Part shown: positions 687-32,754 of the stretch, in pieces
How positions within the stretch are numbered: position 1 is the stretch's first letter
Layout: the number at the start of each line of letters is the position of its first letter
Virus record (IMG/VR): IMGVR_UViG_3300008113_000121
Coordinates: 1-41,013 of that record
From: a virus
DNA length: 41,013 bases
Strand: one strand, 5' to 3'
The notes under the pieces: generated by a model
Seen by the model: the letters and a program-made list of their open reading frames with translations, nothing else
Databases searched by the model: none
Told to the model about the DNA's origin: nothing
Position numbers and translations under genes: made by a program

Positions 687-708
687 TTTACTCTTTCTTC
701 TCTATAGT

Positions 709-717
709 ATTATATCA
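709..717 (-). promoter_or_regulatory. Extended -10 promoter element upstream of recA
   Basis: Read on the minus strand this is TGATATAAT, a perfect extended -10 (TGN plus TATAAT). It follows the stop codon of the MazG-like gene in the string TAAATGATATAAT. A weak -35 (TTCACG, 18 nt upstream) lies inside the mazG 3' end. The predicted start would be about 15 nt above the recA ATG, leaving a short leader. The same string occurs in other gaps of this genome, which raises confidence that it is used. Confidence 0.5.
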
Positions 718-718
718 T

Positions 719-4513: not shown

Positions 4514-4526
4514 AACCGCCTTTTAA

Positions 4527-4548
4527 ATGGGGGCCCGTAGGCCCCCAT
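4527..4548 (-). promoter_or_regulatory. GC-rich hairpin with UACG tetraloop between ssb and dnaE
   Basis: A perfect 9-bp inverted repeat (4527-4535 with 4540-4548) encloses a 4-nt loop reading UACG on the transcribed minus strand, closed by C-G. That is a UNCG-type super-stable tetraloop. The 3' flank is TTTAAAA, so the U-tract is weak for intrinsic termination. It begins 4 nt below the ssb stop codon and ends only a few nt above the dnaE ribosome site. Likely roles are partial terminator, RNA-processing or 3'-end-protecting element, or a brake on dnaE translation that keeps polymerase below SSB. The role is inference; the structure is direct. Confidence 0.7.
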
Positions 4549-4552
4549 CATG

Positions 4553-5224: not shown

Positions 5225-5270
5225 TTATATCTCCTTATGTAATTGATGGTATAAATCCATCTGTATATGT

Positions 5271-5279
5271 ATTATATCA
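5271..5279 (-). promoter_or_regulatory. Extended -10 promoter element fused to the primase stop codon
   Basis: On the minus strand this reads TGATATAAT; the TGA is also the primase stop codon. The predicted transcript would start about 40 nt above the ssb ATG. A short inverted repeat (GATGG...CCATC, 5245-5261) lies in that leader. No good -35 is seen (AATACA at 17 nt), as is usual for extended -10 promoters. It would give ssb its own transcript, which fits the high amounts of SSB phages need. Confidence 0.5.
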
Positions 5280-6326
5280 CGAGTTCCAAGATCTGTATTC
5301 TATGTCGGATACAGAGTTTTTAATACAGGCTTTAATCTCTTCATCAGTCATATCGCCTACATCTTTTGCATCATGTGGGTATATCTTACCATATTCATAA
5401 GAAGCCCACAAGATGTCTTTATTTTTTAGTCTAGCAGCTATGCTTAATCCCAATTCTCTGCCAGCTAAATCTGAGTCTGTCATTATAGTAATTTTATTAA
5501 AGTATCTATTTAAAAGGAATATATTTTCCTTTGATAAATGTCCGCCAAGTGTTGCTACAACATTTGGGAACCCAGCCTGATGTACCCTGATAGCATCAAA
5601 GCTTGACTCTACTACGATTACTTGCTCTCCAATCTTTTTTGCTCTATGAATATTGAACATTGTTTTATTCTTAGGCAGATTAGTACTATTCTTAAATCTT
5701 TTTTCTTTAATAGATCTTCCAACTAGTCCTACTGGCATTCCATCTGGACTATGCACTGGAACAATAACCATGTCCATCTTTTCTGAATACCCTAACTTAA
5801 AGTGATGCATAGACTCTTCACTTATTCCACGCCCTTTAAAATATTCTTTTGCAGCATCTGATGCGCCTAGATCAGAATAAAGCTTGTCTAAAGTGTCCTG
5901 CGAGAATTCTTCAAAGTCTGGCTTGTCTTCAAGCACTGAGCTCAACTCGTCTTCAAATAGATCATCAGAGTTAGGTTTTTTAGAAAGAATAAATCTTAAA
6001 GTTTCAAACTCATTTTTACCAAGTATCTTTTTAACCAACTCTTTAATCCCGCCAGATTCTCCGCATGAAGGATTAAAACAAATCCAAGCACCGTTCTCTT
6101 CGCTTATGTAGAAGCATGCTGTGTGCGTATTGTTGTGAAATGGGCAGTACAAAATTATATTATTATTCGATTCGCCTACAATATTAAGACCTAAGCCTTT
6201 AACTATTGCTTTAATTTGTCTAGGTGAATAGAACGAGGTATCAGCTTGCTTTGTGATATTCCCTCTGTCTGCCATGCCTTCTTCTTCCCTACGTATACGC
6301 CATGGAGAGTCATTAAGAACTTCCAT
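5277..6326 (-). CDS. DNA primase, CHC2 zinc ribbon plus Toprim
   Basis: DnaG-type primase that makes RNA primers for the lagging strand. The 349-residue frame has an N-terminal zinc ribbon, CPFH (C61, H64) and CFNPSC (C83, C88), followed by a linker and a Toprim core with VVESSFDAI (catalytic glutamate), VATLGGHLS and the DSDLAGRE acidic motif. It is much shorter than bacterial DnaG (~580) and has no visible C-terminal helicase-interaction domain. The ATG at 6326 has a good AGGTGA ribosome site but overlaps the previous gene by 124 nt. An in-frame ATG at 6275 would put the zinc ribbon at the DnaG-like position (C44) with a 73-nt overlap. Both are possible. The stop codon is part of an extended -10 box for ssb. 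Confidence 0.93.
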   Translation of the reverse strand: MEVLNDSPWRIRREEEGMADRGNITKQADTSFYSPRQIKAIVKGLGLNIVGESNNNIILYCPFHNNTHTACFYISEENGAWICFNPSCGESGGIKELVKKILGKNEFETLRFILSKKPNSDDLFEDELSSVLEDKPDFEEFSQDTLDKLYSDLGASDAAKEYFKGRGISEESMHHFKLGYSEKMDMVIVPVHSPDGMPVGLVGRSIKEKRFKNSTNLPKNKTMFNIHRAKKIGEQVIVVESSFDAIRVHQAGFPNVVATLGGHLSKENIFLLNRYFNKITIMTDSDLAGRELGLSIAARLKNKDILWASYEYGKIYPHDAKDVGDMTDEEIKACIKNSVSDIEYRSWNS

Positions 6327-6502
6327 GTTTCACCTGTGAATTCTACCGAAAAGGCAGGGTCTATGTCAAGTACTCTGACATATCCCTTACCTCTCATGTC
6401 TTGAACTAACAAATTTTCATATTGTGGTCTTAAGCTAATAAGTTGTGCATTATCATAAAACTCAACATCGATTTGAAATCTTTTAATTTTTCGATGAGTC
6501 AC
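6203..6502 (-). CDS. Hypothetical protein between helicase and primase
   Basis: A 99-residue frame of unknown function, beginning with GTG at 6502 inside the helicase 3' end (20-nt overlap) and running well into the primase 5' end. It is mixed alpha/beta with a basic N-terminus (HRKIKRF) and two beta-rich stretches (GYVRVLDIDPAFSVEF, TWKFLMTLHGVYVG). Residue composition looks like a folded protein, and without it about 150 nt between helicase and primase would be empty. No strong ribosome site is visible, so the exact start is uncertain. It may be a helicase-primase accessory factor by position only. Confidence 0.6.
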   Translation of the reverse strand: MTHRKIKRFQIDVEFYDNAQLISLRPQYENLLVQDMRGKGYVRVLDIDPAFSVEFTGETWKFLMTLHGVYVGKKKAWQTEGISQSKLIPRSIHLDKLKQ

Positions 6503-7733
6503 TGTTTAACTCTGGCAGATTCTCATAAATTGGAGTAATAACTCCACGATTGATATCCCAGTCAAGGTAAAAATCAAACTCTGATCCGTGACGATTCTTT
6601 CTGCTAACTACTTCAATCATATTTGTATTTGTATACTTATGAATAGCAATAGCCATATCAGCATCATACTCAATTGCCTTTGACCATGCTACCTGAGATA
6701 GCATAGGTGGTGCATCTTGATCTGAAATATCATCCATAGTTGCTGCAGTAATATCAATCACTGGGATTCCATTTGTCATAGCAAGCATCTTAAACTCACG
6801 AGAGATATTCATGTTTCGCTCAGTTGCTCCCTGACTTCTCTTTGTATCTGAGAAAAGCTGGTGGTAATCAAGAATAACTAAGTCTGGCTTGTGCTGATCA
6901 ATCTTTGCTTGAACTGTGTTAGCGCTAACTTCTCCCATGCCTTCATTTGACACTAAGATAAACCCGTTCTTATTTTCAAACTTTTTATTTCCCCAAGACC
7001 TTAAGCTGTCAATGTTTACATCGCCTTTGGCAAAATCACTTGCCTTGAATAAACCAGAACCCATCATTGTATAAATACGATTACGCATATCTTCTGGTGA
7101 CATTTCAAGAGAAATAATCATTGGCTTAAACCCTTGCTCCCATGCCTTACATGCAAGATAGGATGTAAACCATGTCTTACCACGTCCTGGCCAGCCAATG
7201 GCTACGATAAGGTGTCCTGGGGCCATGCCTGTAGGATATGCCTTATCGATTGCTTCAAAGCCTGTTAGAATTCCTGGACTACCGCCCATTGCTGCAGATC
7301 TTTCTTTAACTGACTTAAAGTGTTGTTCTGCTAAATCAATATCAGTAATATCAACATCTCTTACAGCATTAGTAAATTTTGAAAGATTAACGAGCTTGCC
7401 TTGAAGATCTATAAGTACTCTTGCAGCAGCATCTTCTTTTAATGCAGAACCTGATTGAATAAGGATAGTCTTAAGCTTATTAGATATATACTCATTCTTT
7501 AATGAGTCTAAGTAATATCCAGTCTCAGCATTTGTTTTTGCTGGCTCAAAGTCTTTAAATCGTTCCATGAGGATTCCGACATCTGGTACCGCCTTGAACT
7601 TATAATAGTATGCCTTTAGAGAATCCCACACATCTCTATGTGATACAAATAGCTCATCCACATTTTCTGCCAGTAATGTGCTAATGTCTTTATTATTGCA
7701 TACCGCTGAGATTAGTGTTGCTTCTGTATTCAC
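6483..7733 (-). CDS. Replicative DNA helicase, DnaB-like
   Basis: Hexameric ATP-driven helicase that opens the replication fork. In 416 residues it has a helical N-terminal domain (about 1-130) and a RecA-fold C-terminal domain. Walker A is GWPGRGKT (180-187), the glutamate motif is IISLEMS (E210), and Walker B is LVILDY (285-290). Further motifs follow through SKAIEYDADMAIAI, and the RKNRHG loop resembles the DnaB arginine-finger region. The start is a GTG with GGAG upstream, overlapping the previous gene by 4 nt (GTGA). It lies directly before the primase gene, as in many phage replication modules. Slightly shorter than E. coli DnaB (471). Confidence 0.95.
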   Translation of the reverse strand: MNTEATLISAVCNNKDISTLLAENVDELFVSHRDVWDSLKAYYYKFKAVPDVGILMERFKDFEPAKTNAETGYYLDSLKNEYISNKLKTILIQSGSALKEDAAARVLIDLQGKLVNLSKFTNAVRDVDITDIDLAEQHFKSVKERSAAMGGSPGILTGFEAIDKAYPTGMAPGHLIVAIGWPGRGKTWFTSYLACKAWEQGFKPMIISLEMSPEDMRNRIYTMMGSGLFKASDFAKGDVNIDSLRSWGNKKFENKNGFILVSNEGMGEVSANTVQAKIDQHKPDLVILDYHQLFSDTKRSQGATERNMNISREFKMLAMTNGIPVIDITAATMDDISDQDAPPMLSQVAWSKAIEYDADMAIAIHKYTNTNMIEVVSRKNRHGSEFDFYLDWDINRGVITPIYENLPELNSDSSKN

Positions 7734-8053
7734 TCTTCTCCACCTTCAACTAATCTTTTAGTAGCCTCTCGCAATTTGCGTCGCCTTTCTTCATCTTGAA
7801 ACTGTGCTTCCATCATGTATGCCATACGGTCAAAATTATTAAAAAAGAAGTTAAGTGGATGACCCGCCTTTGATACTCCAAAATAATAATTAAGCAGTTT
7901 GTATGCCTGATCAAATCCTACACTATCAATTACATCTTGCATAGCCCACTTCTCACGAAACTTATTTATAGTTACAGCCTTCTTATATTTTTGCTTATAT
8001 AAGTTTTGATATAGTGTCAAAAGAACATATGGGTCTTTATTTTTTACGGTCAT
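7730..8053 (-). CDS. Small helical protein, possible helicase loader/accessory
   Basis: A 107-residue, mostly helical, basic and aromatic-rich protein encoded directly before the helicase and coupled to it by a 4-nt overlap. The C-terminal third is a highly charged helix (EERRRKLREATKRL). There is no ATPase motif, so it is not a DnaC-type loader. Small helical proteins beside phage helicase genes are often loaders or replisome organisers, and that is the basis of this suggestion. It could also be an unrelated conserved phage protein. No motif proves function. Confidence 0.6.
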   Translation of the reverse strand: MTVKNKDPYVLLTLYQNLYKQKYKKAVTINKFREKWAMQDVIDSVGFDQAYKLLNYYFGVSKAGHPLNFFFNNFDRMAYMMEAQFQDEERRRKLREATKRLVEGGEE

Positions 8054-8249
8054 TTAGCTCTTCTTCTACTTCACGAGTTTTCTGAATCAGCTTATCCTCA
8101 ACAAACTTATATACACGCTCTGTTGCAGAATCAACATTTTCTCCATCACGAACAGAGTCTTCAACTCCTATGCCTATCTTAATGCTCTCATAATTTCCCA
8201 AATTACGAGTAAAAGATAAGTCTACCTTAACCTTTGTTGGGTCTGTCAT
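8037..8249 (-). CDS. Small conserved-looking phage protein (NLGNYESIKI)
   Basis: A 70-residue protein of unknown function. The ATG at 8249 is chosen because it forms a TAATG overlap with the previous stop and has GGCGG at good spacing; an upstream in-frame ATG at 8264 would add five residues. The N-terminal half is beta-type (KVKVDLSFTRNLGNYESIKIGIGVE) and the C-terminal half is a long charged helix (SATERVYKFVEDKLIQKTREVEEELNDRKK). I recall similar NLGNYES-type small proteins from other phages, but without a known function. Confidence 0.65.
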   Translation of the reverse strand: MTDPTKVKVDLSFTRNLGNYESIKIGIGVEDSVRDGENVDSATERVYKFVEDKLIQKTREVEEELNDRKK

Positions 8250-8731
8250 TATTCCGCCTTCCATACTGGTATAAACTTGCCGTCAGAGCTCTTAGTATAC
8301 AATATAACATTGTTTTTGAGAAGAGCCTTCAGTTCACTTCTTGAAGGCAATTCTTTTGAGTATCCTGAGTCTAATATAAACTCATGAAGATCTAGTATGT
8401 CAGATTCACTAAACATAAATTTAGACCATGTGCTTTCTGGATTTCCGATTGGGTATACTCTTTGAGGTACTTTTATTTTGCCATCCAAAATATAGTCTTC
8501 TAAAGTAACCTTATGCCTATCAAGAATTCTTGCCACATCAGATGTTGAATATGCGTTCTCCATATTTTTCTTTACTTGAGAATATGGATACAGCACTCTT
8601 TTTTTGTCTGGGTAGCACCAAGCTATCAATTCATCTTTTGATCTATTACTTCTTAATACTTTATGTATTTTTCCATTTAAGAAGAAATAGACAAATTTTT
8701 TTGATACTGGTTTTCTCTGTTTTCTAGCCAT
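8249..8731 (-). CDS. HTH (MerR/excisionase-like) DNA-binding protein
   Basis: A 160-residue protein with a very basic N-terminus (ARKQRKPVSKK). Residues 61-84 (YSTSDVARILDRHKVTLEDY and following) look like the helix-turn-helix of MerR/excisionase-type proteins: a T/S-x-x-D-V-A-x-x-L helix, a turn and a recognition helix, followed by a wing-like RVYPIGNP segment. This suggests site-specific DNA binding as a small phage regulator or recombination directionality-like factor. There is no integrase in the window to pair with it. It overlaps the zinc-ribbon gene upstream by 55 nt; the ATG has AGGTTGGG before it. It is a candidate for binding the operator at 9705-9723, purely by proximity. Confidence 0.6.
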   Translation of the reverse strand: MARKQRKPVSKKFVYFFLNGKIHKVLRSNRSKDELIAWCYPDKKRVLYPYSQVKKNMENAYSTSDVARILDRHKVTLEDYILDGKIKVPQRVYPIGNPESTWSKFMFSESDILDLHEFILDSGYSKELPSRSELKALLKNNVILYTKSSDGKFIPVWKAE

Positions 8732-8865
8732 TTGCCCAACCTATTCGTGTCTTTATTCAACATCCATCTTTTTCCGCACAGTATACAAAAAAGCTCAATG
8801 TGAAGCTTTTGAGAGAATACTCTGTCCACAAATACTCTTCCGTTACATCTACTACATGTCATCAT
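8677..8865 (-). CDS. Small zinc-ribbon protein
   Basis: A 62-residue protein starting at the ATG at 8865, which gives an ATGA overlap with the phosphoesterase stop. A longer in-frame start at 8895 would run into that gene and is less likely. The core is a four-cysteine zinc ribbon, CSRC (C4, C7) and CILC (C27, C30), with beta-type sequence between. The C-terminal ~25 residues are a charged tail. Such small ribbons in phages bind DNA, RNA or RNA polymerase, but no specific role can be read here. The tail overlaps the next gene in another frame. Confidence 0.65.
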   Translation of the reverse strand: MMTCSRCNGRVFVDRVFSQKLHIELFCILCGKRWMLNKDTNRLGKWLENRENQYQKNLSISS

Positions 8866-9662
8866 ACTTGAAAGAACTTTCCATCCACTACACAAGAATA
8901 ATCAGGTGCTACGTGAATCATCTGAATATGAGGATAGTCATTTACAATATGAGCTACCGCAAAACCCTTTTGCCAATCATGGTGCTGTGTATACTTCATT
9001 CCTGGGCCCTTCTCGTCGCACATGTGTCCAATCTCGTAGCCACGTAGCGTTTCACCTTCTCCATTGTTTCTAAGTTCATATGTTACCATATGTGAAGCGA
9101 TTCTGTGTGAGTGTCCACGAATTAATGAAATCTGCATGTCTTCCATATCTTTTCTTGCAGAACCAGTTGCTGCAATTGATAATCCGTGATGTACGTGAAT
9201 GTCTCCAAATCGACGTTTAGGCAATTCGTCATAAAATATATATTCATATCCTAAAGAATCTAAAGACCATAATGCTTCTGGCGTTACTTCATTAATATAG
9301 TCTGGCAACTTGGCATCAACATAATTAAAGATACGTACATCGTGATTACCTAAAGCAGAAAAAAGTTGTGCGTCTGGAAGCATCTCACGAGTCTTTGCAT
9401 AAAAATCTCTTGCGCCTTTAGCCTCATGTCTCATCATTGGCACGATTAAATCTTTGCTATCTGTCTTATGAAAATTTAAAAATTCGGCAGACCTGCCTTC
9501 TGTATATTTGCTATAGCATGCTTGGTCATCTGTATCTCCAAGGTAGTCTACAACATCTGGCTTAAACCACTTCATTACCTTAAACCACAGCTCAATCATC
9601 TTGTCATCTTGATATGGGAACTGCTGATCAGAAGACAGCATCCACTTTAAATCGTTGCTCAT
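8862..9662 (-). CDS. Calcineurin-like metallophosphoesterase
   Basis: A 266-residue binuclear-metal phosphoesterase. The family motifs appear in order: SSDQQ (D12, Q14; many members have DxH here, phage members often DxQ), GDTDD (G42, D43), GNHD (105-108), HVHHG (156-160) and GHSH (183-186). Substrates in this family include 2',3'-cyclic nucleotides, DNA or RNA ends and phosphoproteins; the sequence does not decide. The ribosome site is AAGGA, 5 nt before the ATG. It is the first gene after the terminator/promoter junction at 9678-9742 and so probably leads the accessory-plus-replication operon. Confidence 0.88.
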   Translation of the reverse strand: MSNDLKWMLSSDQQFPYQDDKMIELWFKVMKWFKPDVVDYLGDTDDQACYSKYTEGRSAEFLNFHKTDSKDLIVPMMRHEAKGARDFYAKTREMLPDAQLFSALGNHDVRIFNYVDAKLPDYINEVTPEALWSLDSLGYEYIFYDELPKRRFGDIHVHHGLSIAATGSARKDMEDMQISLIRGHSHRIASHMVTYELRNNGEGETLRGYEIGHMCDEKGPGMKYTQHHDWQKGFAVAHIVNDYPHIQMIHVAPDYSCVVDGKFFQV

Positions 9663-11173: not shown

Positions 11174-14100
11174 CTACTGTGCACTAGATTGTCCTGAATC
11201 TGATGATGTTCCAGAGCTATTTGTAGCATATACTGCAACTTTCCAAAGGCTAGAAGTTTTTGGAAGCAAAAATGACTGTGCTGAAGCACCTGTACTGAAT
11301 GGTCCTCTTGTAGTTTGTACGCTTGCATACGAATCGCTTGAGCCGTAACACTTTAAGTAATAACTTATAGGTGCGGTTCCTGTAGAATTTGTCCACGTTG
11401 CAGAATATCCGTAATCATTAGTAGTATTGTTTGCAGGAACATATGTTAATGTTGGAGTTCCTGGGGTAGATGGTGCAGTTCCACCAGAAGTTACAGTTGC
11501 TGAATTAGAAAATGCTTGTACTCCAGATGGAGCGCCAGAATTAAATGCAGTAACTCTACATCTAATTGCGAAATTAGCCCATGAACTAGAGTTAAATGTA
11601 GATCCTGTTTGACCTGTTGAAAACCATGTTGCTCCTTGATCAAAATATTGCCAAAGATATTCATAACTTGTTGGAGAATTTGTCCAAGTTCCATTGGTTG
11701 TACTAAATGTTGTTCCAGCTGCTCCACTAGTTGGTGTAACTGCTGGAGCGACTGTATTTACTGGAGGAGATACTGTTGCTAGTCTAGTTCCAGAATCTCC
11801 AGCGCTCCATTCAGATTTTGTATCTGTTGGATTACCTGATCTAAATGCTTGAACATAGTAATCTCTTGTGACTCCAGCACCCATAGAAGTATCTAAGTAT
11901 GAAGTTCCTGTAAGCGTTGTAGTAAATACACCTTGTCCATCTTTTGGAAAATCTGGCGTATTGTTATAGGATGGTGCTGGTGGACCATACCAAATTCCAT
12001 AATAAGCTGCATTAGGTACCGCTGTCCATGTAATATTGATTCCGTCTGTTCTATTGTCAGATGCAACAACGTTTGTTGGAGTTGCTAATTTTGTTAATGT
12101 TGCTGTTGTATCGTAGAAGCTGTTATTTGTTACTCCTTCTTGAGACATAACGCTTAAAGGTATTACTGTTAAATAATATCTAGTGCTTGGTGATAATCCG
12201 CTTATTGCCAGAGGATTAGTTGTTATAGTATTTGCACTTGAAACAATAGGGCCAGTATAAGATCCAGTTCTTAGAGTATAAGAATAGGTAGCAAATTCTG
12301 GTCCAATAAAATTAAATGGTATTGATAATGATGTAGATGTAGCGGTAGCAACTCCTGGGGTAATTGAGCATTGTACATATTGATTAGCAAAAGCTTGAAT
12401 TCTTGTCCATCCATTGTCAGCGTTCCCGCCAGTAGTCAATGATGCATTATTTGTAGTATTTATTTGCTGTGCTGATATCATTAAAGAGTCTGGTATTCTA
12501 AGTTGCTTTCCTACTGGTCTTCCTGGCCATGGGGTTATTCCAGTTGACCCTTGTGTTCCATTAAAGTTTAATCTGTAAGTAAATGCGTTAGCGGTATCTC
12601 CTTCATCTACTGTATCTGTTGGTATTGTATATGCAGGTAGACCATTTGTCCCTGGGATCCATTGTTGTCCATTATTGTATGCTCCTGGCATACTTGATCC
12701 TGGCAACAGATTGCCCTTTCTAATAATAGAAACATCTACGTATGCATTTGATGTGTTAAATTTTACCTGATAGTCTAAAGCATAGCTAGACTGATTTGAT
12801 TGGTTAAAGTAGTAACCTCTCCATTGTAAAACATAGTTAGAAAAATCAGACCAATATTTTAACCCAACAAAATCTGCAGTGGGCTGACCTTGTATTAAAT
12901 CTGTTGGATATATTCCCATAGATCTAAACGGAACTGCTGACATTATTGTAGATGTACTTGCTTGATCAAATGATATATATCCATTTGTTCCAACATATAG
13001 AATATCTCCAAGGCTAAATTGATACGGTCCAACTAAAACAAAACTTCTTTGAATATTTCCAGGCTGAGCTGTTATAGTTATTGTTTTTGAGCTACCAGTG
13101 GAATATGTATGAGCCCTGCTTTGAGAAATAGTTTCTGTCAAAAACCCAGAATATGTTTCATTTGGAGTTCCGTCTCCCCAGTTAATTGTATATTGAGTTG
13201 TATATCCAGATATACTAAAGCTATAAGAAGATGAAACTCCTGGGGTAAATGAAAGTGGGCTTAAAGCATTTATGGTAACTTGAGAATCAAGATTTGACAG
13301 AGTGTCTCCCCAATTTGCAAATGCTGTTACTGGTGTATCAGTTCCATTTCTGGCTGTTACTTTACACCTTGCTTTGCTATATAATGCTGAATTTGGAACA
13401 ATAAAAGTATTAGTATTATTTCCAGTTTCAGTAAAGTTTCTATAACCATCTTCTCCCACTCCAGCCTGGTCATAATACTGCCATTGATATGAATATACTG
13501 TGTTAGCATTTACATTTGACCAAGATCCAGTACTACATACAAGTTGTGTATTTTTTGGAGCATACAATCTACTATTTAAAGGCGTTACGGTTGGAGCCAC
13601 CGTATTTACTGGTAAAACTGCTGTCGTATTGAATGCTACAGATCTTACTTGAAGTGTTGGATTTGCAGAGGTTTTCCATCCATCATTTGCAACTACTTCA
13701 ATTCTTCCAAAATATGAAGTGCTTGGAGCTAAGTTAGGATCATTAGTTACCGTATACACTCTAGTATTTACTGGGATACCTGTGATTGGAGAAATTACAT
13801 CAGGGCCAGTTGCGCTACCAGATCTTATTTTTAAAGTTTGACTATGTATATATGTGGAGTCGGTTATTCCAGTAACATCCCAGGTAAAAGTTACATCATT
13901 ATCTGTTACATTTGAAGTTGTTAATGAACTAACTGCATGAGATACTTTTGCTAATCCAGCCGTTGTTTTTATTGGAAAATTATAAACAGTCGAGTTTGGA
14001 TCCGATGGATCCGTGTCCACCCTTATTCTTCCAGCAATATAGTATTGTCCCTTTGCATCATCATCAGTAACAATATATGTAATTGCTGTGCTAGATGTGG

Positions 14101-14515
14101 AGTTATTTCCATAAAAAATAGTTGGACCAGAGACAGTTTCCCAATTTGCAATATTGGTATCAAAATTAATACTTCGAACTATGGACATGGTATATTTTGT
14201 TTGTGTATCTGCAGTAGTATTAGTATAATTTCCTCTAGTCAAAGAAACTATATTTCCTCCCTTAAACAAAGATGCTTCAGTTGCAAGGTCGGGATCTAGA
14301 TTAGTTTCATTTCTTAAAGTTGCGAATGGTGTGGCTGAGGTTGGCTCTAGAGTGGATGAAAAAACATTTACCCAAACACTATCATTACCTGGAGCCCCTT
14401 TTCTATATATAGCTTTCATTTTCACCCAAACGTTATCATTAGTTGGAGAACCTTTTCTATATATATTTTTTAAACGTAGCCATACGCCATTTCCGTCATA
14501 TCTATAAATTGGCAT
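11174..14515 (-). CDS. Large tail fibre/minor tail protein with Fn3, PKD and Ig-like domains
   Basis: A 1113-residue, Ser/Thr/Asn-rich, beta-type virion protein, probably a tail fibre that contacts the host surface. The N-terminus has an 18-residue tandem repeat (IYRKGSPTND then IYRKGAPGND). Fibronectin III-like segments follow (e.g. TWDVTGITDS, NITWTAVPNAAYYGIWYG). Two related Ig-like domains each start with VNTVAP and contain WQY.DQ (about residues 305-410 and 915-1010), and a PKD-like stretch (YTINWGDGTPN) sits near 445. There is no catalytic motif or classic trimeric chaperone domain. It follows the 1614-residue fibre gene after 3 nt. Modules like these are freely exchanged between phages. 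Confidence 0.85.
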   Translation of the reverse strand: MPIYRYDGNGVWLRLKNIYRKGSPTNDNVWVKMKAIYRKGAPGNDSVWVNVFSSTLEPTSATPFATLRNETNLDPDLATEASLFKGGNIVSLTRGNYTNTTADTQTKYTMSIVRSINFDTNIANWETVSGPTIFYGNNSTSSTAITYIVTDDDAKGQYYIAGRIRVDTDPSDPNSTVYNFPIKTTAGLAKVSHAVSSLTTSNVTDNDVTFTWDVTGITDSTYIHSQTLKIRSGSATGPDVISPITGIPVNTRVYTVTNDPNLAPSTSYFGRIEVVANDGWKTSANPTLQVRSVAFNTTAVLPVNTVAPTVTPLNSRLYAPKNTQLVCSTGSWSNVNANTVYSYQWQYYDQAGVGEDGYRNFTETGNNTNTFIVPNSALYSKARCKVTARNGTDTPVTAFANWGDTLSNLDSQVTINALSPLSFTPGVSSSYSFSISGYTTQYTINWGDGTPNETYSGFLTETISQSRAHTYSTGSSKTITITAQPGNIQRSFVLVGPYQFSLGDILYVGTNGYISFDQASTSTIMSAVPFRSMGIYPTDLIQGQPTADFVGLKYWSDFSNYVLQWRGYYFNQSNQSSYALDYQVKFNTSNAYVDVSIIRKGNLLPGSSMPGAYNNGQQWIPGTNGLPAYTIPTDTVDEGDTANAFTYRLNFNGTQGSTGITPWPGRPVGKQLRIPDSLMISAQQINTTNNASLTTGGNADNGWTRIQAFANQYVQCSITPGVATATSTSLSIPFNFIGPEFATYSYTLRTGSYTGPIVSSANTITTNPLAISGLSPSTRYYLTVIPLSVMSQEGVTNNSFYDTTATLTKLATPTNVVASDNRTDGINITWTAVPNAAYYGIWYGPPAPSYNNTPDFPKDGQGVFTTTLTGTSYLDTSMGAGVTRDYYVQAFRSGNPTDTKSEWSAGDSGTRLATVSPPVNTVAPAVTPTSGAAGTTFSTTNGTWTNSPTSYEYLWQYFDQGATWFSTGQTGSTFNSSSWANFAIRCRVTAFNSGAPSGVQAFSNSATVTSGGTAPSTPGTPTLTYVPANNTTNDYGYSATWTNSTGTAPISYYLKCYGSSDSYASVQTTRGPFSTGASAQSFLLPKTSSLWKVAVYATNSSGTSSDSGQSSAQ
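14370..14465 (-). repeat. 54-nt tandem repeat in fibre gene start
   Basis: Two 42-nt copies (14370-14411 and 14424-14465) with 36 of 42 bases equal, period 54 nt, in frame with the fibre gene. Together they encode two copies of an 18-residue unit with VWV/VWL, IYRKG and ND. The high nucleotide identity suggests a fairly recent duplication within the anchoring end of the fibre. Confidence 0.8.
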
Positions 14516-23863: not shown

Positions 23864-24309
23864 TATATCTCTTCCAGAGTTAAAGATACATTCCACAATT
23901 CTTGAGGCGTATCCCCAGGACTCATTTTAGCATTTCTTCTAATAATCTCAAAACTACATGAAGTAAAAAACATTGTTAGGCTTTCTGCATTTGCAGTAGA
24001 GCCATATTTTACAGTAACTGGAAATGATGCCTTGCCAGTAGCACCTTCATAAAAATCTTTAATATCTCTAGCCCCATAAAATCCATCTACAGTATATGAT
24101 GCTCTTGATGGAAGCATATCCCAAGAAACAGTAATTTGCTTTTTATCTGCAATAAAAAACTTTCTCATTGTTCCATTAGACATTCTTTGAAGCTTTTCAA
24201 TTCTATTTACAGATATAGATACTGGTCTACGATTATGTTCTGACAGGCTGTACCCGCCAATTGTTATAAGGGCTCCTACTGGTAATGTTATTGGGTATGA
24301 TGTTGGCAT
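23863..24309 (-). CDS. Distal tail-type protein
   Basis: A 148-residue beta-sandwich type protein encoded right after the tape measure, with a TAATG overlap. Motifs such as NRIEKLQRMSNGTMRKFFIA, ITVSWDMLPSR, ARDIKDFYEG and FEIIRRN...LWNVSLTLEEI have the form of the N-terminal domain of Dit-like or tube-related proteins that attach the hub to the tail tube. It is much shorter than a full Dit (~250), so it may be a tube-fold adaptor only. Good ribosome site GGAG. Confidence 0.65.
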   Translation of the reverse strand: MPTSYPITLPVGALITIGGYSLSEHNRRPVSISVNRIEKLQRMSNGTMRKFFIADKKQITVSWDMLPSRASYTVDGFYGARDIKDFYEGATGKASFPVTVKYGSTANAESLTMFFTSCSFEIIRRNAKMSPGDTPQELWNVSLTLEEI

Positions 24310-27300
24310 TATTTACTCCTACCGTATCCTATTCTCTTTAATTCCTTCATTTCAAGATCAACTATATATCTTCCGACTTCTTCTTTAGATAGACTTTGAG
24401 GAATATTATAGGTGTTCTGCATAACAATGTTACCACCAAGTAGTGGTGCTTGTCCACCACCAGACATCATTACTCTATTTGATGTTGTGCTTGGAACAGA
24501 ATACTTTGTTGCTAATCCACCCATCGCCATTCCATTAATTCTATCGAGTAGTGGAACTCCAACATTTTGAACAGCCTGTGCTCTAATTACATATTCTCCA
24601 TTAGAAAGCATTGCTGGTATTGAATCAGATGTTCCAGAACCTGGGCCAGATATTACTCCGCCGCCTGCTTTTTGCAAAATAGCTGGCAAGAAGTCTCCTG
24701 ACCCCCCAGTATTTCCTTTATATGTTTTTCCTTCATATGTAAAGAATTGTCCAGAGCCAAGTCCAAAGGCCTTCATAATTGCTCTTCTTCCTTCAGCATT
24801 TAAAGTGCCATCTTTTTGCAAATAGCTGTCGTATGTATTGCTTTGAATTTGTTTCGAGTCCGCCTTTGACCTATACATACCTTGTGCTCCGCCGCCTGCT
24901 ATGTCTAGCTTTTTGCCATTTATATATATATCTCCAGTAGTAGTAATTCCTTCTTTAGCCAATGCTGCAGATAGTCCTTTATCCAAACTCTTTATAAGGT
25001 TGAATGAAGTATTTGCGATATCTTCTGGCTTTAATTTTCCGCCAACAACATCTGGTAGGTTAGCAGTTCCTGTTGGAAGTCCAGCCTTCTTTACTTCATT
25101 TAAGAAGTCAGCAGCAAGTCCCTTAAACTCAGCGGTTGTCTTAAACTTTTCAATATTATCTTTATTTGCAATAAGCGCTAATTGGAATCTAGTCATTGCT
25201 CCATTTACGCCATCAATTTCTTTTGTCTGTCTTGCAATTTTTGCATTTAAAGCATCTAAACTTTCAGCAGCAAGTGCTGCCTTATCTCCAAGCTTTTCAT
25301 TCTTATCTTGAATTGCTTGCTTTCTTGCTTCTAGAGGTTTTACTTGTGCATCTCTTTCTGCGTCAATTTGATTCATTGCAAGAGTATTTTGTCTGCCAGA
25401 TATTAACTCACGCATTCTCAATTTAGCTTGTGCAGCTGCAGTCATATCTCCAGTTGCTATATTTTGCTGATACTCAAGTTGTGCCTTTTGCAACTCTAAC
25501 TGATAACTCTCACCAGCAGCCTGATCTTGCAAAGCCTTCTTTCTGGCGTCAGCTCTTTCATTAATCTTCTTTATTTCTCTATCAATAGCTCTAATCGCAT
25601 CACGATCTTTTATTTGCTGTGCTACAGTTTGTCCCTTAGTAGCCTTTAGCAATTCCTTTTGTCTTGCTGTAAGCTTATCTAAATTCTCATACTGCTTCTT
25701 TAGAAGGTTTTCTCTGTTAGTTGAAACAACAGCATTTGAAACTTTAACTGTCAACTGATACAACTGCTCAACTTGCTCAGTATTTAACTTACTTATATCT
25801 CCAGTAAATCCAGCAGCTTGAATTCTTAACTTTTGCCACAAGCTAACTACAGTATCTGTTGTGCTAGCAAATGCTTTCCACTCTGGATTCTGTTTAATAA
25901 GATTATTTAAAAGAGCTTGTCCTATAGGCTGCTGTTCTTTAACCTTAGAATTAATCATTTGAAGCTGCTTATTCTCTGCTTCATATAGAGCAAGCTTCTT
26001 TGTTTTTCCAGTCTTATCTTTTCTGGCCGACTCTTCGCTAGCCTTCATTATGCTTTCTACGCCTGATTCAATTGCACCTAAAGCAGTAAATAGTTGAGCC
26101 GCTTGATCTCTTGTATTTTGAAAATCTTTTGCTAAATTAAATGTTCCAATAGAGCTAACTGCTGCAGTTTCTGGATTTCTTATTTCTCCAAATCCCTTTG
26201 AGCCAACTGCAGACACTGCATATGCAGCTTTATCTGAGACCTTGAAAAGAGTATAGATCTTTTTGCTAGCTTCCTCTGCTGACATTCCAGCAGCTACAAA
26301 TTGTTCTTTTAGTTGTATAGCTACTTGATTTAAGTCTTTAGAACTAGTGGCATTAATAAGATCTATCTGATCCTTCATTGTTGCTTTAACTTCTTTTTGC
26401 AACTTCTTATACTCTTGAATTGTTATATTGAATGGAGTGCCAGCAATCTGTAGACTTTCATAAACAAGTTTGTTTTTATCAAGTAGCAACTTGATTGAAT
26501 CAATAGAATCTTTTATCTTTGAATTATAATTTGTATATTTTAGCCCAGCCTTTTCTGCAGATTCTGCAGTCAATCCAAATGCTGCTGCTGATAATCTTTG
26601 TGTTTCATTATAATTCTTCCAAGCTTTTATTCCAAGGCCAACGGCAGCTACACCAGCACCAAGCGCAACATTTAATCTTGAAATACCAGTAAGCATTTTA
26701 CCTAGAGTAGGCAAAAGCTTTCCTCCGCCTGTAGCCATTTCATTAATGCTAGATGCAAATCTTGTTCCAGCAAATACTGATTGTCTGCCTCTAGATAATC
26801 CTGGCGTTACAGACATTCCTGGTCCAGATGGAGTAAGTCCCATTTGATCCGCAAGCATTGGACCACGTCCTGGGAATCCTAATCTTTGTTCTATTGAAGG
26901 TCCATCTACTCTGCCTCTACCTCCGCCAAATCCTGGTGTTAAAATTGATCCAAGCAATCCGCCAATCATTGAGCCATTTTGACCTCCTAATCTAGATCCC
27001 AATGCGGATCCTCCATAGTAGCCAAGTTGACTTAGTAGAATGCTAGCAAGTATACCTCCGCCCCTGTTGTATCCTGGAACTCTGCCTCCGCCCATGTAGC
27101 CTTGTACCATTCCACCGCCCATGTATCCTGGAACCATACCGCCCTTATTGAATCCAAAGATTGCTTTTCTAACTCCTGGGGTAGACTTAAGCTGCTTAAT
27201 GTCCCAATTAGTAAATTGTTCCTTTAATATCTTTTTATCAATTGGAGATAATTGCTTACCATGTCTACGCATAACAATTTCTGCTGCATCACGTATCATT

Positions 27301-30300
27301 TGATCTGTTTGGTCTGGCTCTATACCTCTAAATAATTTTCCATCTGCAGCCTTAAAGTATCCGCTAGGCCTTGTGTTTGAGGTTGTCTCTAGCAAAGCGT
27401 CATAAAGTAAATTTTGTGTATATGGTCGTAATCCTGTTCTTCCAAATAATTTAGATCCCATTCCAAGGCTTGCTGACTTGTGAGACCATCCTGCATCATT
27501 ATCATTCTTGCCCCACTTAGCACCAAGCTTTTTCATAATCATACTTTTAGTAAATGCTTGTACTCTTCCTCCAACTGCATACCCTGGAACCATACCGCCA
27601 CGATTTGCTGTAAACATGCTTGAAGCGCTAGAAGACTTTGAGAATCTTGTCATTGCGCCAATTTCTGCAGAACTTACAAGTTTGCCCCAAAGATTTTCAT
27701 TCATTGTCCCATTTCTGCTTTTTATCAAAGTGTTTAATCTTTGTGCAGCAATTTTAGCAATAGCCTGAGCTTCTGCTGGAGGAACTCCCATATCCTTTAG
27801 TTTTATTAAAAGACTTTGCATATCTTGCCAGCCAACATCTGACCATGCGTCTTTCCATCCCTTGCCGTCTGGAGTTGAGGCTGGGGATCCCGCACCCTTA
27901 ATTCTTTGATTAAAGCTTCCTGAATTTTTTACCCATGTTGTAGATAAAGCTTTTAATGTAGCGTACTGCGTATTTCCTGGAACTTGAATTCCCATAGACC
28001 TTAATACGTCAACAGGTATCTGATCTTCTGGTCCGTAACCTAATGCCTTTAATCTTCTTATATATTGTGGAGAAAATGCATGAACAAGAACATTTCCTTT
28101 AGATGTTGGAGTAATTCCATACTCTTTATTTTTTGGATCATTGTACACATTAGATCTTCTAAGTCTTGCATCTGAGTATCTTATTGAACCTGCGCCTGTT
28201 TCTGCAATTGGTTGTGGATTTGATCCAGTAGTATCCCATCTATTTCTACTTTGTCTAAAGTATCTAGTTCCAGGAGATCTAAATCCGCCAAATATGCTTG
28301 ATTTAGCTAGGTATCTAGGAATTATTCCTCCAAGATTTCTATTGATTGGAACAATCATTGCTTGTCCGTCGTTAAGTGCTCTCATTCCTTCTGGATCTTG
28401 TTGAGCAACTCCTCTACGAATTACAAACTCTCCAGGAGTTAACATAGCTGGAACTACGTCAGCATTTACATTTGGTCCTGGTACTTGATCTCCATTATTA
28501 TAAAATACTTTTCCGCCAGAATTTAGTCCTTGAGGTTTTGTAGTCTCAATACTGTATGCTCCACCCATTGTTCTTGTTCTTGTTGCTCTTCCTAGAGCAG
28601 ACATAACATCTCCAAATATTCCTTGACGGAACATTCCACGAGTATTTGGCTTTCCTCTAGGATCAACTACTGGCTGATCTATGAGTGGTGCCTTTGTTAA
28701 ATCTATTGTTCTGCCACGCTGTGCAGCATATGCTGAAACTTCCGCACCCATCATTCTTTCAAGCTCAGCATTTGAAGCTATAATAGCTGCACGAGCCTGC
28801 TGAATATTAATTTTTCCAGCCTTTAATTCTGAAACAATTTGAGCAGATTGTGTGGCAGCATTTGCTGTAAGCCTTTGTGTAATTGGCAAGATGTCATCAA
28901 ATGTATCAATAAGCTCCTTTGATACTTGTCCGCCCATTCCAATAATCTTCTTTAAAGAATCAATTTCTGCTTTACTTTGTACTCCCAATGTAGCCATCAA
29001 TGCTGCATATCTTGCATGTTCTGAAGCAACTACTCCTGTGGAAACATTATTTATTGTTGTTAATCCTGGGACATCTGGCAATCTTTCATTCATTAATATC
29101 TGAGGGTTGGCACCAATCTTTCTATTTACTGGAATTGGTTGCATGGTTAATCCAAATATTGAAGTTGGATTATTTGGATCTCTAGGATTTAAATGTGCTG
29201 CTGCTCTTGAAGTTCCGCCAAGAAGAGGGTTACTTGTATCTACAACTCTTTGTCCAGGAACAGAACCAAAATTCATAACTGGTGTTCCAGAGGCTGTAGT
29301 CATTACGCTGCCAAGCGTAGCTGTAGATGCAGTTGCTCTTCTGGCATTTGCCTCTAATAAAATTAAATCTTCGCTTAGCTTTTTAATTGCTAAACTTAGT
29401 GTTGCTGCTGCCTTCGAATCGTTATAGAATTCATTTCCAAGTTGCTTTCCTGCATCTTGTGCAGCCATCATTTCTGGAGTTAATAGTTTAAATCCTTCTG
29501 CACCTTTAAATAAAGCTTTAAAGTGTCCAAGGCCCTTAATAATATACCCAAAGAAGTTGGCAAGAACACCAGTAAGCATAATTACTGGACCTATGATTGC
29601 TGTAAATGCTCCAGCAAATGTCATAAGCTTTTTAACTGGGTCTGGTAGCTTTTGTGCAAAATCAATAATTCCGCCTAGAACATTTAGAAGCTTTGTTCCT
29701 ATATCTAAGAAATCTTCTCCAACTCCAGCAAGATCTGCCTTCAAACTTTCAATTGCTCTCTTATATCTTCCAGCTGCTGATTCTGTTACTGCTGCTAATT
29801 CTCGTCCAGCCACAGCTTCAAGTTCTCCAGTACTTGCCTTCATTAAATCTAAAACCTTTAAAGTCTGGCTTCCTTGGCGGCCTAAATTCTCAAACAAAGC
29901 GTTTAGTCTTGAGAACTGGAACTTACCGAACAACTGCTCAATAGCTTGTTGTTTTTGCAAAGGATCTAGATTATCTAAGGCAGCTTGCAATGCTAGTAGC
30001 GTTTCAGTTACATTTCCAGCATTACTATTTACAATACCCAACAAGTCAATTCCAAATCCTTGGAACTTTTCAACTGCTACATTTGTTGGGTTAATCAAAG
30101 ATGCAAGTGCTGACTTTAATGCGTTTGCACCTTCTGATGCATTAATTCCACCTTCACGCATTGCTGTTAAGTATAGTGCTAAATCTTGTACGCTTCCGCC
30201 CAAACCCTTAATTACAGGACCAGCCTTTGGAATAGCCTCAACCAAATCTTGAAGGGTTGTTGATGTCTGGTTTTCAACTGCGTTTAGGAAGTTAATAGAT

Positions 30301-31238
30301 TGCGCTAGCTCTTCTGTATTTTGCTGAAATGCTGACTGAATTGCAAGAGTTGCCTTCATAGCCTCTTGTCTATCTACTTCACCAAGAACTGCAAGTCTTG
30401 TTGTTTCTGCAACTGATGAGAGAAGTTCGTTTCCAGTTTTTCCAGTTGCTGCAATATCTGCAGCTAAGCTAATGGTCTCTGAGAAGTTAACTCCCATTGC
30501 AGATGACAATTCTTTTGCAGTGGCAGAAACTTCTTTTCTTACTTTAGCGAGCTCTTCTGCGGATGTACCAGCCACATCACCATAAACCTTTGTTAATCTT
30601 GTTAACTCTTGATCAGCAACCTTAAATGCATCTGCTGCAGCTTTACCAAATGCAGCAAGTGGCAATGTTAATCCAACTGTTAACTGGCGTCCTGCCCACT
30701 GAGTATTCTTACCCCAGTTAATTAATTGAACTCCGCCATCTTGAATTACCTTATTCATTATCTGTAATTCTTGTTTTAATACAGATGCTCTATTCTTTAC
30801 TAAGTCTAGTCCACGAGGAATATGAACGTTATACTGCATTAGCCCCTGTGCATTTCTGCCGAGGGGTTGCAATACTGAGTTTTGTAGTTGAACCTGCTGT
30901 TTTGCAAGGTCTCTTATAAGTCCACCAGTTGTTCGTGTATGGTCTTGATAAACTCTAAAATAATCTCTAAGCTTTAATCTGCCACTATCTAGATTTCTAC
31001 CAAACTTTTCAACATCAGAGGTTAGACTAACAAAGTGTGTAGAGAATTGCCCAGTCTTGAGCATTGTCTCTTTGAACATTGCATTGGTTGCACCAATTTG
31101 ACCAGCTAATGCTCTATTTGATCCAGCAAATTCTTGTTGCAGTTTTGAGAGACTATTCGTAACTCTCTGCACATCTGCAATAAGATTTGAAAAATCAGAT
31201 TTAGCAACTATGTTAGTTACTATTTGTTGATCAGCCAT
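24309..31238 (-). CDS. Tail tape measure protein
   Basis: A 2309-residue protein that sets tail length and helps DNA cross the cell envelope. Residues about 150-350 match the TP901-type phage tail tape-measure core (GRQLTVGLTLPLAAFGKAAA, SLAADIAATGKTG, AMREGGINASEGANALKSAL). Long helical and coiled-coil segments rich in Gln, Lys and Ala follow, especially 1650-2150. Hydrophobic stretches lie near 545-575 and 1525-1550, and a glycine-zipper-like run lies near 1390-1435. Two copies of the loop motif PAMLTPGEFVIR / PAMLSNGEYVIR lie near 935 and 2200. Between them a GG-V-PGY repeat occurs several times. No peptidase (CHAP, lysozyme, M23) was recognised. By the usual length rule the tail would be ~350 nm. 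Confidence 0.95.
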   Translation of the reverse strand: MADQQIVTNIVAKSDFSNLIADVQRVTNSLSKLQQEFAGSNRALAGQIGATNAMFKETMLKTGQFSTHFVSLTSDVEKFGRNLDSGRLKLRDYFRVYQDHTRTTGGLIRDLAKQQVQLQNSVLQPLGRNAQGLMQYNVHIPRGLDLVKNRASVLKQELQIMNKVIQDGGVQLINWGKNTQWAGRQLTVGLTLPLAAFGKAAADAFKVADQELTRLTKVYGDVAGTSAEELAKVRKEVSATAKELSSAMGVNFSETISLAADIAATGKTGNELLSSVAETTRLAVLGEVDRQEAMKATLAIQSAFQQNTEELAQSINFLNAVENQTSTTLQDLVEAIPKAGPVIKGLGGSVQDLALYLTAMREGGINASEGANALKSALASLINPTNVAVEKFQGFGIDLLGIVNSNAGNVTETLLALQAALDNLDPLQKQQAIEQLFGKFQFSRLNALFENLGRQGSQTLKVLDLMKASTGELEAVAGRELAAVTESAAGRYKRAIESLKADLAGVGEDFLDIGTKLLNVLGGIIDFAQKLPDPVKKLMTFAGAFTAIIGPVIMLTGVLANFFGYIIKGLGHFKALFKGAEGFKLLTPEMMAAQDAGKQLGNEFYNDSKAAATLSLAIKKLSEDLILLEANARRATASTATLGSVMTTASGTPVMNFGSVPGQRVVDTSNPLLGGTSRAAAHLNPRDPNNPTSIFGLTMQPIPVNRKIGANPQILMNERLPDVPGLTTINNVSTGVVASEHARYAALMATLGVQSKAEIDSLKKIIGMGGQVSKELIDTFDDILPITQRLTANAATQSAQIVSELKAGKINIQQARAAIIASNAELERMMGAEVSAYAAQRGRTIDLTKAPLIDQPVVDPRGKPNTRGMFRQGIFGDVMSALGRATRTRTMGGAYSIETTKPQGLNSGGKVFYNNGDQVPGPNVNADVVPAMLTPGEFVIRRGVAQQDPEGMRALNDGQAMIVPINRNLGGIIPRYLAKSSIFGGFRSPGTRYFRQSRNRWDTTGSNPQPIAETGAGSIRYSDARLRRSNVYNDPKNKEYGITPTSKGNVLVHAFSPQYIRRLKALGYGPEDQIPVDVLRSMGIQVPGNTQYATLKALSTTWVKNSGSFNQRIKGAGSPASTPDGKGWKDAWSDVGWQDMQSLLIKLKDMGVPPAEAQAIAKIAAQRLNTLIKSRNGTMNENLWGKLVSSAEIGAMTRFSKSSSASSMFTANRGGMVPGYAVGGRVQAFTKSMIMKKLGAKWGKNDNDAGWSHKSASLGMGSKLFGRTGLRPYTQNLLYDALLETTSNTRPSGYFKAADGKLFRGIEPDQTDQMIRDAAEIVMRRHGKQLSPIDKKILKEQFTNWDIKQLKSTPGVRKAIFGFNKGGMVPGYMGGGMVQGYMGGGRVPGYNRGGGILASILLSQLGYYGGSALGSRLGGQNGSMIGGLLGSILTPGFGGGRGRVDGPSIEQRLGFPGRGPMLADQMGLTPSGPGMSVTPGLSRGRQSVFAGTRFASSINEMATGGGKLLPTLGKMLTGISRLNVALGAGVAAVGLGIKAWKNYNETQRLSAAAFGLTAESAEKAGLKYTNYNSKIKDSIDSIKLLLDKNKLVYESLQIAGTPFNITIQEYKKLQKEVKATMKDQIDLINATSSKDLNQVAIQLKEQFVAAGMSAEEASKKIYTLFKVSDKAAYAVSAVGSKGFGEIRNPETAAVSSIGTFNLAKDFQNTRDQAAQLFTALGAIESGVESIMKASEESARKDKTGKTKKLALYEAENKQLQMINSKVKEQQPIGQALLNNLIKQNPEWKAFASTTDTVVSLWQKLRIQAAGFTGDISKLNTEQVEQLYQLTVKVSNAVVSTNRENLLKKQYENLDKLTARQKELLKATKGQTVAQQIKDRDAIRAIDREIKKINERADARKKALQDQAAGESYQLELQKAQLEYQQNIATGDMTAAAQAKLRMRELISGRQNTLAMNQIDAERDAQVKPLEARKQAIQDKNEKLGDKAALAAESLDALNAKIARQTKEIDGVNGAMTRFQLALIANKDNIEKFKTTAEFKGLAADFLNEVKKAGLPTGTANLPDVVGGKLKPEDIANTSFNLIKSLDKGLSAALAKEGITTTGDIYINGKKLDIAGGGAQGMYRSKADSKQIQSNTYDSYLQKDGTLNAEGRRAIMKAFGLGSGQFFTYEGKTYKGNTGGSGDFLPAILQKAGGGVISGPGSGTSDSIPAMLSNGEYVIRAQAVQNVGVPLLDRINGMAMGGLATKYSVPSTTSNRVMMSGGGQAPLLGGNIVMQNTYNIPQSLSKEEVGRYIVDLEMKELKRIGYGRSK
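27059..27153 (-). repeat. GG-V-PGY repeat cluster inside the tape measure gene
   Basis: Encodes a run with the units GGMVPGY, GGMVQGY and GGRVPGY in tandem; another single unit (GGMVPGYAVGG) lies near 27566-27608. These Gly-rich loops sit between helical segments and immediately precede a glycine-zipper-like hydrophobic stretch. The copies are imperfect at nucleotide level. Confidence 0.7.
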
Positions 31239-31248
31239 ATACTATATG

Positions 31249-31904
31249 TTACTCCCTGGAGTAGCCCAATCCCATTCCAATACCAAATCCAGCTTCATTG
31301 GCAAACTGTCCTTGTAATGACACGATATCATCACCTCTAGCATCTATGCCCATTGCTCTTCTTTGTATATCTTCAAAGGTTGGACCTTTGTTTTCTTCGC
31401 TTCTTTCCAAGGTCTTATCTTGTAGTGAAGCCAAGAATATTCTTTTTTCCTCTTCCACCTTTTGCATTGCTGAAAAGGTTTCAAGTAGTTCTGGTAAGGA
31501 TAAGTTTTCCTCTAACTCCTGATAACTTTTCCAGCTACCAATAAGAAAAACTTGCCCTTCTAAAGCAGCTAAATCTAGTTCTGACCAGCCAGAACCGCCG
31601 CCATTAGGTTTGGGTCGTCAAGCTTAATACCGCCACACACTTCAAGAATTCTGTTAATTGTTGGAATGTCTAGCGCTTCTTCTAGCAAATCTTTATCTTT
31701 AGTTAACTCTGGAAGTTGTGTCTCTAGTGCAATTGCACATGCATCAATTAGAACGCCTAATGATTCATTTTCTGTTGTAGCTTCTTGAGCTTTATTAATT
31801 ACAGCCATGAACTTGCGAAGCTGCTTAATTGATAGCGGCTTTAACTGAACTGTCTCGCCGTTTTGTAGTTTAATTTCTTCTACATCGTATACCGTAGTGG
31901 CCAA
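31249..31904 (-). CDS. Tail assembly chaperone, -1 frameshift product (gpGT-like)
   Basis: Fusion of the gpG-like frame to a second open frame by a -1 ribosomal slip. The second frame is open from just below a TGA at 31618 to the stop at 31249 and continues upstream of its first ATG (31467) with sensible protein sequence (GGGSGWSELDLAALEGQV, FLIGSWKSYQELEENLSL). The slip site C CCA AAC (31614-31608) is in the right phase for -1. The fusion would have 99 residues from the first frame plus 119 from the second, 218 in total. In lambda-like phages the T part contacts the tail tube protein and tape measure during assembly. Position between tail tube and tape measure is exactly the usual one. The second frame alone lacks a convincing start. 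Confidence 0.85.
31575..31904 (-). CDS. Tail assembly chaperone, short form (gpG-like)
   Basis: A 109-residue helical protein with the typical plan of phage tail assembly chaperones: a short beta N-terminus (VYDVEEIKLQNGETVQLKPL) followed by helices (SIKQLRKFMAVINKAQ, INRILEVCGG). It coats the tape measure and helps the tail tube polymerise. The start is a TTG with a strong AAAGGAGG ribosome site; no in-frame ATG is near. A promoter at 31931-31959 sits just upstream and the tail-tube terminator lies above that. Most ribosomes should stop at 31575; a fraction should slip to make the longer GT form. Confidence 0.85.
   Translation of the reverse strand: MATTVYDVEEIKLQNGETVQLKPLSIKQLRKFMAVINKAQEATTENESLGVLIDACAIALETQLPELTKDKDLLEEALDIPTINRILEVCGGIKLDDPNLMAAVLAGQN
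31578..31614 (-). promoter_or_regulatory. Programmed -1 frameshift signal (CCCAAAC plus stem-loop)
   Basis: Heptamer C CCA AAC at 31614-31608 fits the X XXY YYZ rule in the zero frame. Twelve nt downstream lies a 6-bp stem, GTTCTG (31595-31590) with CAGAAC (31583-31578), around a 6-nt loop, as a possible stimulator. Both reading frames stay open over the site: the -1 frame has its last stop at 31618 and the zero frame stops at 31575. Confidence 0.8.
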
Positions 31905-32010: not shown

Positions 32011-32754
32011 TTATGCGTAAACACGGTCAATAATCTTACCGTATTCTTGACCAGCGTATGCCGCATCACCTGATGGTAGAAGACGGAATGTTACTGGGAA
32101 TGTTGTTGGGGTGTTACGTGCTAGTGAGAACTGTGACTGCTGTACTGAAAGAACACGACGTGCATAATATACACGCTCCTGCTTTGAGTAGCTAGTTGTG
32201 TTGTACTCTGGTGATGGGCCTACAGCGATTAGCTGACGCTCAACTGGTGCAGCAAGCAAAGCTCCTGCAGCCAAACCAAGTACCTGTGGTGTACCTGAAT
32301 CTCCTGGGCCTGTTGGCTCAGCAGTTGTTAGAGTTTCGCTTGATGAATAACCTGAAGACTCTGTTACTCCTGTTGATCCTCCTGGCTGACCAAATACAAC
32401 TAGAAGATTCTCAAGAGTACCTTCTGTCATTTCTGTTGCAAGCATAACTTCCATTGACTCCTTGAAAAGCTTTGCTGTATCAAGAAGCTGATCTACAGTT
32501 ACTGAACCGTATGTTGGGTTGTAAGTAATCTGAAGACCGTTGTTTGTGTAACCTACGTTACGGAATTTAGCTGTTGATGGTGAAGATGTGTAAGCTGTGT
32601 TTAGTGTATCTGTGTATGAACCAGTTCCAAACGCAACCTTTCCTGCACCCTTTGTTGGATCCAAATCTACTGCGTCGCCAGCCTTTGTGCTGATGAACAG
32701 TGGTGATGCACCCACGATAATATTTTTGGCTGAATTAAATTTATCTCTTGCCAT
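32011..32754 (-). CDS. Major tail tube protein
   Basis: A 247-residue protein that stacks as hexameric rings to form the tail tube. It has the strongest class of ribosome site (GGAGGT), its own likely promoter upstream and its own terminator downstream, all fitting a very abundant product. Sequence is beta-rich with a central variable Gly/Ser loop (QPGGSTGVTESSGYSSSETL) and ends with strands FPVTFRLLPSGDA and EYGKIIDRVY, a usual tube-fold ending. Its base composition looks less AT-rich than neighbouring tail genes, as in the capsid gene. It lies directly before the tail chaperones. Confidence 0.85.
   Translation of the reverse strand: MARDKFNSAKNIIVGASPLFISTKAGDAVDLDPTKGAGKVAFGTGSYTDTLNTAYTSSPSTAKFRNVGYTNNGLQITYNPTYGSVTVDQLLDTAKLFKESMEVMLATEMTEGTLENLLVVFGQPGGSTGVTESSGYSSSETLTTAEPTGPGDSGTPQVLGLAAGALLAAPVERQLIAVGPSPEYNTTSYSKQERVYYARRVLSVQQSQFSLARNTPTTFPVTFRLLPSGDAAYAGQEYGKIIDRVYA

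Follow-up and report, generated by a model that had tools for sequence, protein, structure and literature searches.

Two overlapping reading frames lie between a major tail protein-like gene and a tape measure protein gene in a viral sequence from IMG/VR record IMGVR_UViG_3300008113_000121, and the downstream frame has no evident start of its own. We asked how this second frame is translated, using the whole stretch of 41,013 nucleotides (here, referred to as the window) and its relatives. Judged by sequence comparison, the answer is very probably a programmed -1 ribosomal frameshift of the lambda G/GT type at CCCAAAC, which would yield a gpG-like protein and a gpG-T fusion. Two versions of the tail chaperone are almost certainly made from one gene, a device familiar from many long-tailed phages and present in some form in nearly two hundred distinct relatives.

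Layout of the two frames

The features of the region, in the direction of translation, are as follows.

32011-32754, minus strand: major tail protein-like gene (Ig-domain family PHROG 2175); the syntenic gene in cultured relatives is annotated as major tail protein
31914-31902, minus strand: Shine-Dalgarno GGAGG (31914-31910) and TTG start of the gpG-like gene
31904-31575, minus strand: gpG-like tail assembly chaperone ORF (G part), 109 residues, TTG start; PHROG 10504 (E = 9.6e-33) and PHROG 344 (E = 9.3e-4); its relatives carry the annotation tail assembly chaperone
31617-31249, minus strand: -1 frame ORF (T part), stop at 31251-31249; PHROG 10474 (E = 2.3e-11)
31614-31608, minus strand: slippery heptamer C CCA AAC, in phase with the TTG ORF; local reading GAC GAC CCA AAC CTA ATG
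31577-31575, minus strand: zero-frame stop TAG of the gpG-like ORF
24309-31238, minus strand: tape measure protein, 2,309 residues; PHROG 10030 (E = 9.5e-120) and PF10145

The order major tail protein-like gene, chaperone, tape measure is the same in relatives, and the GGAGG upstream of the gpG-like start is retained in the relatives listed. The initial annotation had placed an in-phase C CCA AAC at 31614-31608 in the gpG-like frame, and this is exact. It had the -1 frame open from 31618 to 31249; the frame is indeed open to 31249, but because a TGA at 31620-31618 shuts it just upstream, it opens at 31617. We rejected 31618 as its first position, since translation from there gives the wrong frame. 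Counted from CCC, the -1 frame is 121 codons long. Its earliest ATG, GTG, or TTG is the ATG at 31467, which has no Shine-Dalgarno sequence, so a gene caller would report a 72-residue gene and leave a gap of 107 nt (31574-31468), as the initial annotation had foreseen. The predicted fusion also agrees with the length and the DDPN-PNGGG joint given there: it has 218 residues, is joined at KLDDPN-PNGGG, and links its G and T parts through a Gly/Ser-rich stretch.

Elsewhere in the window, the tape measure protein contains several internal repeats of the GGMVPGY/GGRV type. An ORF of 1,113 residues with no PHROG match (11174-14515, minus strand) lies between the tail genes and the replication genes. 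The replication block (3-9662, same strand) encodes RecA/UvsX-like, MazG-like, DNA polymerase III alpha-like, and single-stranded DNA-binding proteins, a primase, a DnaB-like helicase, and a metallophosphoesterase. No tRNAs were found in the window.

Conservation of the slip site and coding of the -1 frame

In-phase XXXYYYZ heptamers occur 62 times in the 10,624 codons of the window, and at this rate a slip zone of approximately 12 codons would contain one with a probability of about 7%. By itself, then, the heptamer is weak evidence, and its significance comes from its conservation in relatives. A second in-phase CCCAAAC, at 33434, leads into a -1 frame that is closed after 16 codons. We found 80 IMG/VR loci with the G protein, 79 of which reach the site; the remaining contig ends before it. 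All 79 informative close relatives have the heptamer (CCCAAAC in 74, CCCAAAT in 5), in every case from gene nucleotide 291, and their -1 frame spans 121 to 125 codons in every contig that extends far enough to include its end. The CCCA of the heptamer comes from codons GAC96 and CCA97, and neither showed a synonymous change in 47 distinct genes, whereas the neighboring Asp95 alternates between GAC and GAT in the same genes. Elsewhere in these genes, GAC accounts for 40% of Asp codons and CCA for 66% of Pro codons.

We then considered how the -1 frame itself changes. Over the 36 codons from the G stop to the first ATG, the window and its relative L001 differ at 0, 0, and 8 sites at codon positions 1, 2, and 3, respectively. 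Past the overlap, third codon positions change most often across 76 distinct loci, and the -1 frame keeps an invariant string of residues (W, E, L, D, L, A, A, L ... F, L ... G). None of the 73 close sequences examined, window included, has an ATG, GTG, or TTG in the overlap. By this pattern of substitution, coding selection already acts on the -1 frame ahead of the first codon at which it could start, in line with the earlier claim that it codes for protein through the gap with no start of its own. Coding selection upstream of any start codon implies that the -1 frame must be entered from G.

Two structures downstream of the heptamer were considered as possible stimulators of slippage.

31601-31597 with 31569-31565, minus strand: candidate stimulatory helix of 5 bp, GCGGC with GCTGC, starting 6 nt after the heptamer and enclosing a hairpin at 31596-31577
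31595-31578, minus strand: hairpin GTTCTG-GCTGGT-CAGAAC, 12 nt after the heptamer, present in the window

The complement needed for the helix is present in all 77 distinct close relatives, as GCGGC-GCCGC (58), GCAGC-GCTGC (10), or GCGGC-GCTGC (9), and the variable pair is G-C, G-U, or A-U, with 4 two-sided cells. The Ala codon on the partner side is GCC or GCT only, though GCA makes up 60% of the Ala codons in the rest of T. Every helix cell pairs in a 40-sequence alignment, and the two-sided count, which rests on one pair and probably on few events, was matched by only 1 of 500 shuffles. The helix was not found in the other clades compared, and downstream folding energy was no better than that of shuffled sequences (z = -0.99; mean z = -0.58). 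We regard the 5-bp helix 6 nt downstream as a plausible lineage-specific stimulator. In the window's own fold, the GTTCTG/CAGAAC hairpin is nested inside this helix. It is the 6-bp stem-loop that the initial annotation reported 12 nt downstream; the stem-loop exists in the window, but its pairing is not conserved: two of the pairs are disrupted, each in 12 of 40 sequences, no two-sided change occurs, and we rejected it as a conserved stimulator. An upstream Shine-Dalgarno sequence was likewise rejected for the window: many relatives carry GGAGGA approximately 15 nt before the site, but the window reads GGCGGT, and the codons there are variable.

Apparent relocation of the slip site and alternative explanations

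A slippery-type site and a -1 ORF were kept in all 196 distinct sequences compared. Site types among these 196 distinct G genes were CCCAAAC/T (144 genes), AAATTTG/A one codon downstream (30), both in overlap (2), and CCCGGAA (20). All 20 CCCGGAA sequences are of the Boydwoodruffvirinae type (the Streptomyces-phage type), in which we detected no XXXYYYZ in the overlap (L086, L089, and L176-L185); CCCGGAA stands at the corresponding place, often immediately after the -1 frame TGA. The comparison with relatives that the initial annotation had proposed, covering heptamer, phase, and open -1 frame, came out in its favor among both the close relatives (79 of 79) and the wider set (196 of 196 with a slippery-type site).

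The two main site types differ in the codons that create them. The 144 CCCAAAC/T genes always have GAC for Asp and never have TTA or TTG after Asn, whereas the 30 AAATTT genes always have GAT for Asp and TTA or TTG after Asn. The change from GAC to GAT, which removes CCC, thus coincides without exception with the TTR codon after Asn that creates AAATTT (30 of 30 versus 0 of 144). The form A AAT TTG was seen after GAT CCA in L146, L155, L157, and L159 and after GAT GCA in L309 and L314, the 2 of the 30 AAATTT genes in which the Pro codon is also lost. Two further genes, L226 and L252, carry an overlapping double site, CCCAAATTTA, with both heptamers in phase. On a tree built on G plus T with the slip site left out, the AAATTT group is nested within the CCCAAA group; parsimony gives two changes, and one change is possible. 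Because L226 and L252 fall in other lineages, they indicate that a double-site intermediate is viable and do not identify it as an ancestor. The simplest reading of these patterns is that selection maintains a slip site rather than its exact letters.

A homogeneous A-site codon (AAR or TTY) was found in none of 176 heptamers. We give about even chances to the following account: in one clade, the slip site shifted one codon downstream, C CCA AAC giving way to A AAT TTG, plausibly by way of the overlapping double site CCCAAATTTA, with phase and fusion kept, and the family holds to mixed purine/pyrimidine A-site codons (AAC, AAT, TTG, and TTA), which by E. coli rules are weak, as though under selection for a low slip rate. 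A low slip rate would fit a fusion made in the minority. We infer selection for a low rate; an alternative reason for the codons would be an amino-acid constraint on Asn.

These data bear on other ways in which the T part could be made. It is very improbable that T is a separate protein rather than part of a fusion, arising after the G stop through re-initiation or a non-canonical start, as a separate downstream ORF in gene callers' output and in several GenBank records (Circinus gene 35, Wakanda gene 34) would have it. The overlap lacks all three start codons in the 73 close sequences, ATG 31467 is not preceded by a Shine-Dalgarno sequence, and conservation of the -1 frame reaches back to the heptamer, 49 codons ahead of that ATG. 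A separate T would not need the heptamer, yet the heptamer is kept synonymously and replaced in step. Slippage of the RNA polymerase rather than the ribosome would be expected to give a -1 product as well, and we consider it less probable still: no long homopolymer is present, the longest runs being CCC and AAA and the relocated AAATTTG being alike in this respect, and the phase of the heptamer is always kept, though it is irrelevant to RNA polymerase. A single gene split by a sequencing or assembly indel, which can leave two ORFs in adjacent frames, has next to no probability: the relatives refute it, with the same arrangement in isolated phages and in 196 distinct sequences drawn from many assemblies.

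The sequence, phase, conservation, coding selection, and synteny of the frameshift region are established by these comparisons. Several points were counted against the frameshift. The A-site shift from AAC to AAA belongs to a class that is inefficient in E. coli (PMC4066793), the downstream folding energy does not surpass that of shuffled sequences, and the G part is tied to lambda gpG only indirectly, through a weak match to PHROG 344.

Predicted products and known systems

Under the ribosomal frameshift, the majority of ribosomes would terminate at 31575 and release the 109-residue gpG-like chaperone. In a minority, tRNA-Pro on CCA and tRNA-Asn on AAC would move back one base to CCC AAA, with the helix 6 nt downstream possibly contributing, and the slipped ribosomes would run on to 31249 to make the 218-residue gpG-T fusion. 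By analogy with lambda, the G part may bind the tape measure protein and the T part may bring the major tail protein.

The locus resembles lambda gpG/gpGT in its short chaperone frame, its -1 extension, and its position near the tape measure gene. The lambda slip heptamer is GGGAAAG, an X XXY YYZ sequence near the 3' end of G. The window differs in its heptamer, has an Asn codon in the A site where lambda has a Lys codon, and shows no direct sequence match to gpG. A heptamer unlike lambda's and a TTG start had been singled out in the initial annotation; both are true, but they are only ordinary variation. Lambda has gpG and gpGT in a ratio of about 30:1; both bind the tape measure, T recruits the major tail protein, and both are gone from the finished tail (PMC5009743). 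Efficiency in E. coli is lower for slips after which AAC or AAT is mispaired on AAA, whereas CCCAAAG combined with a strong stimulator slips very efficiently (PMC4066793).

PHROG 344 (tail assembly chaperone) was matched by 13 of 49 relatives at E ≤ 0.01, and Foldseek gave a match to the viral tail assembly chaperone A0A6J5QVP5 (E = 2.8e-6; model mean pLDDT 66). No Pfam or PDB match linked the G part directly to lambda gpG. Gene order, architecture, and family (weakly, through PHROG 344) are as in lambda, and together with the fold match to a viral tail assembly chaperone they suggest the same chaperone role.

The nearest isolates are Streptomyces phages of the Stanwilliamsviridae, which have homologous G (42 to 57% identity) and T (about 38 to 47% in best hits), the same gene order, and the slip site in the same place. 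The window differs from these isolates in its CCCAAAC heptamer, its 37% GC sequence, and its T part, which is about 40% identical. Patelgo (genes 37/38) and Sham (34/35), both Loccivirinae, have CCCAAAT, and Yaboi (60/59, Boydwoodruffvirinae) has CCCGGAA; a joined CDS is already in GenBank for all three, and several such records read "tail assembly chaperone." In Circinus (gene 35), Wakanda (34), LilMartin, Tomas, and others, GenBank gives T as a separate gene that begins beyond the G stop, and the records of the four named phages (L085, L091, L093, and L094, respectively) probably lack the joined gene. Rhodococcus phage Francesca has a distant homologue with an annotated joined CDS and GGGAAAA at the corresponding place; compared with the window, its G is larger (174 codons), its heptamer differs, and identity is 30%. 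A search of viral contigs with this Rhodococcus homologue gave no match, and no relative of the G protein was found in the bacterial and archaeal genome collection searched. The cultured relatives do no more than hint at an actinobacterial host.

In SEA-PHAGES genomes, PRFect reported a hypothetical "threetwotwo" slippery motif whose commonest form is CCCGGAA (PMC10885494). Given this and the joined CDSs in GenBank, the mechanism in this phage family is already known to annotators. Our literature searches, which had partial coverage, returned nothing relevant on CCCAAAC with frameshift and phage, nothing on Stanwilliamsviridae with tail assembly chaperone, and no laboratory evidence for the frameshift.

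Overall, this is an ordinary lambda-type tail-chaperone frameshift, and its novelty is modest: an uncultured clade is annotated, and a slip site appears to have moved by one codon. With PHROG 10504 assigned as the G part and PHROG 10474 as the T part, two families that had no label acquire a function; both are common in metagenomic phages and readily mis-called by standard gene finders. The natural series at one position (CCCAAAC, CCCAAAT, CCCAAATTTA, AAATTTG, and CCCGGAA) would be useful for testing how far bacterial ribosomes tolerate mispaired A-site slips and for asking how a slip site moves without loss of the fusion.
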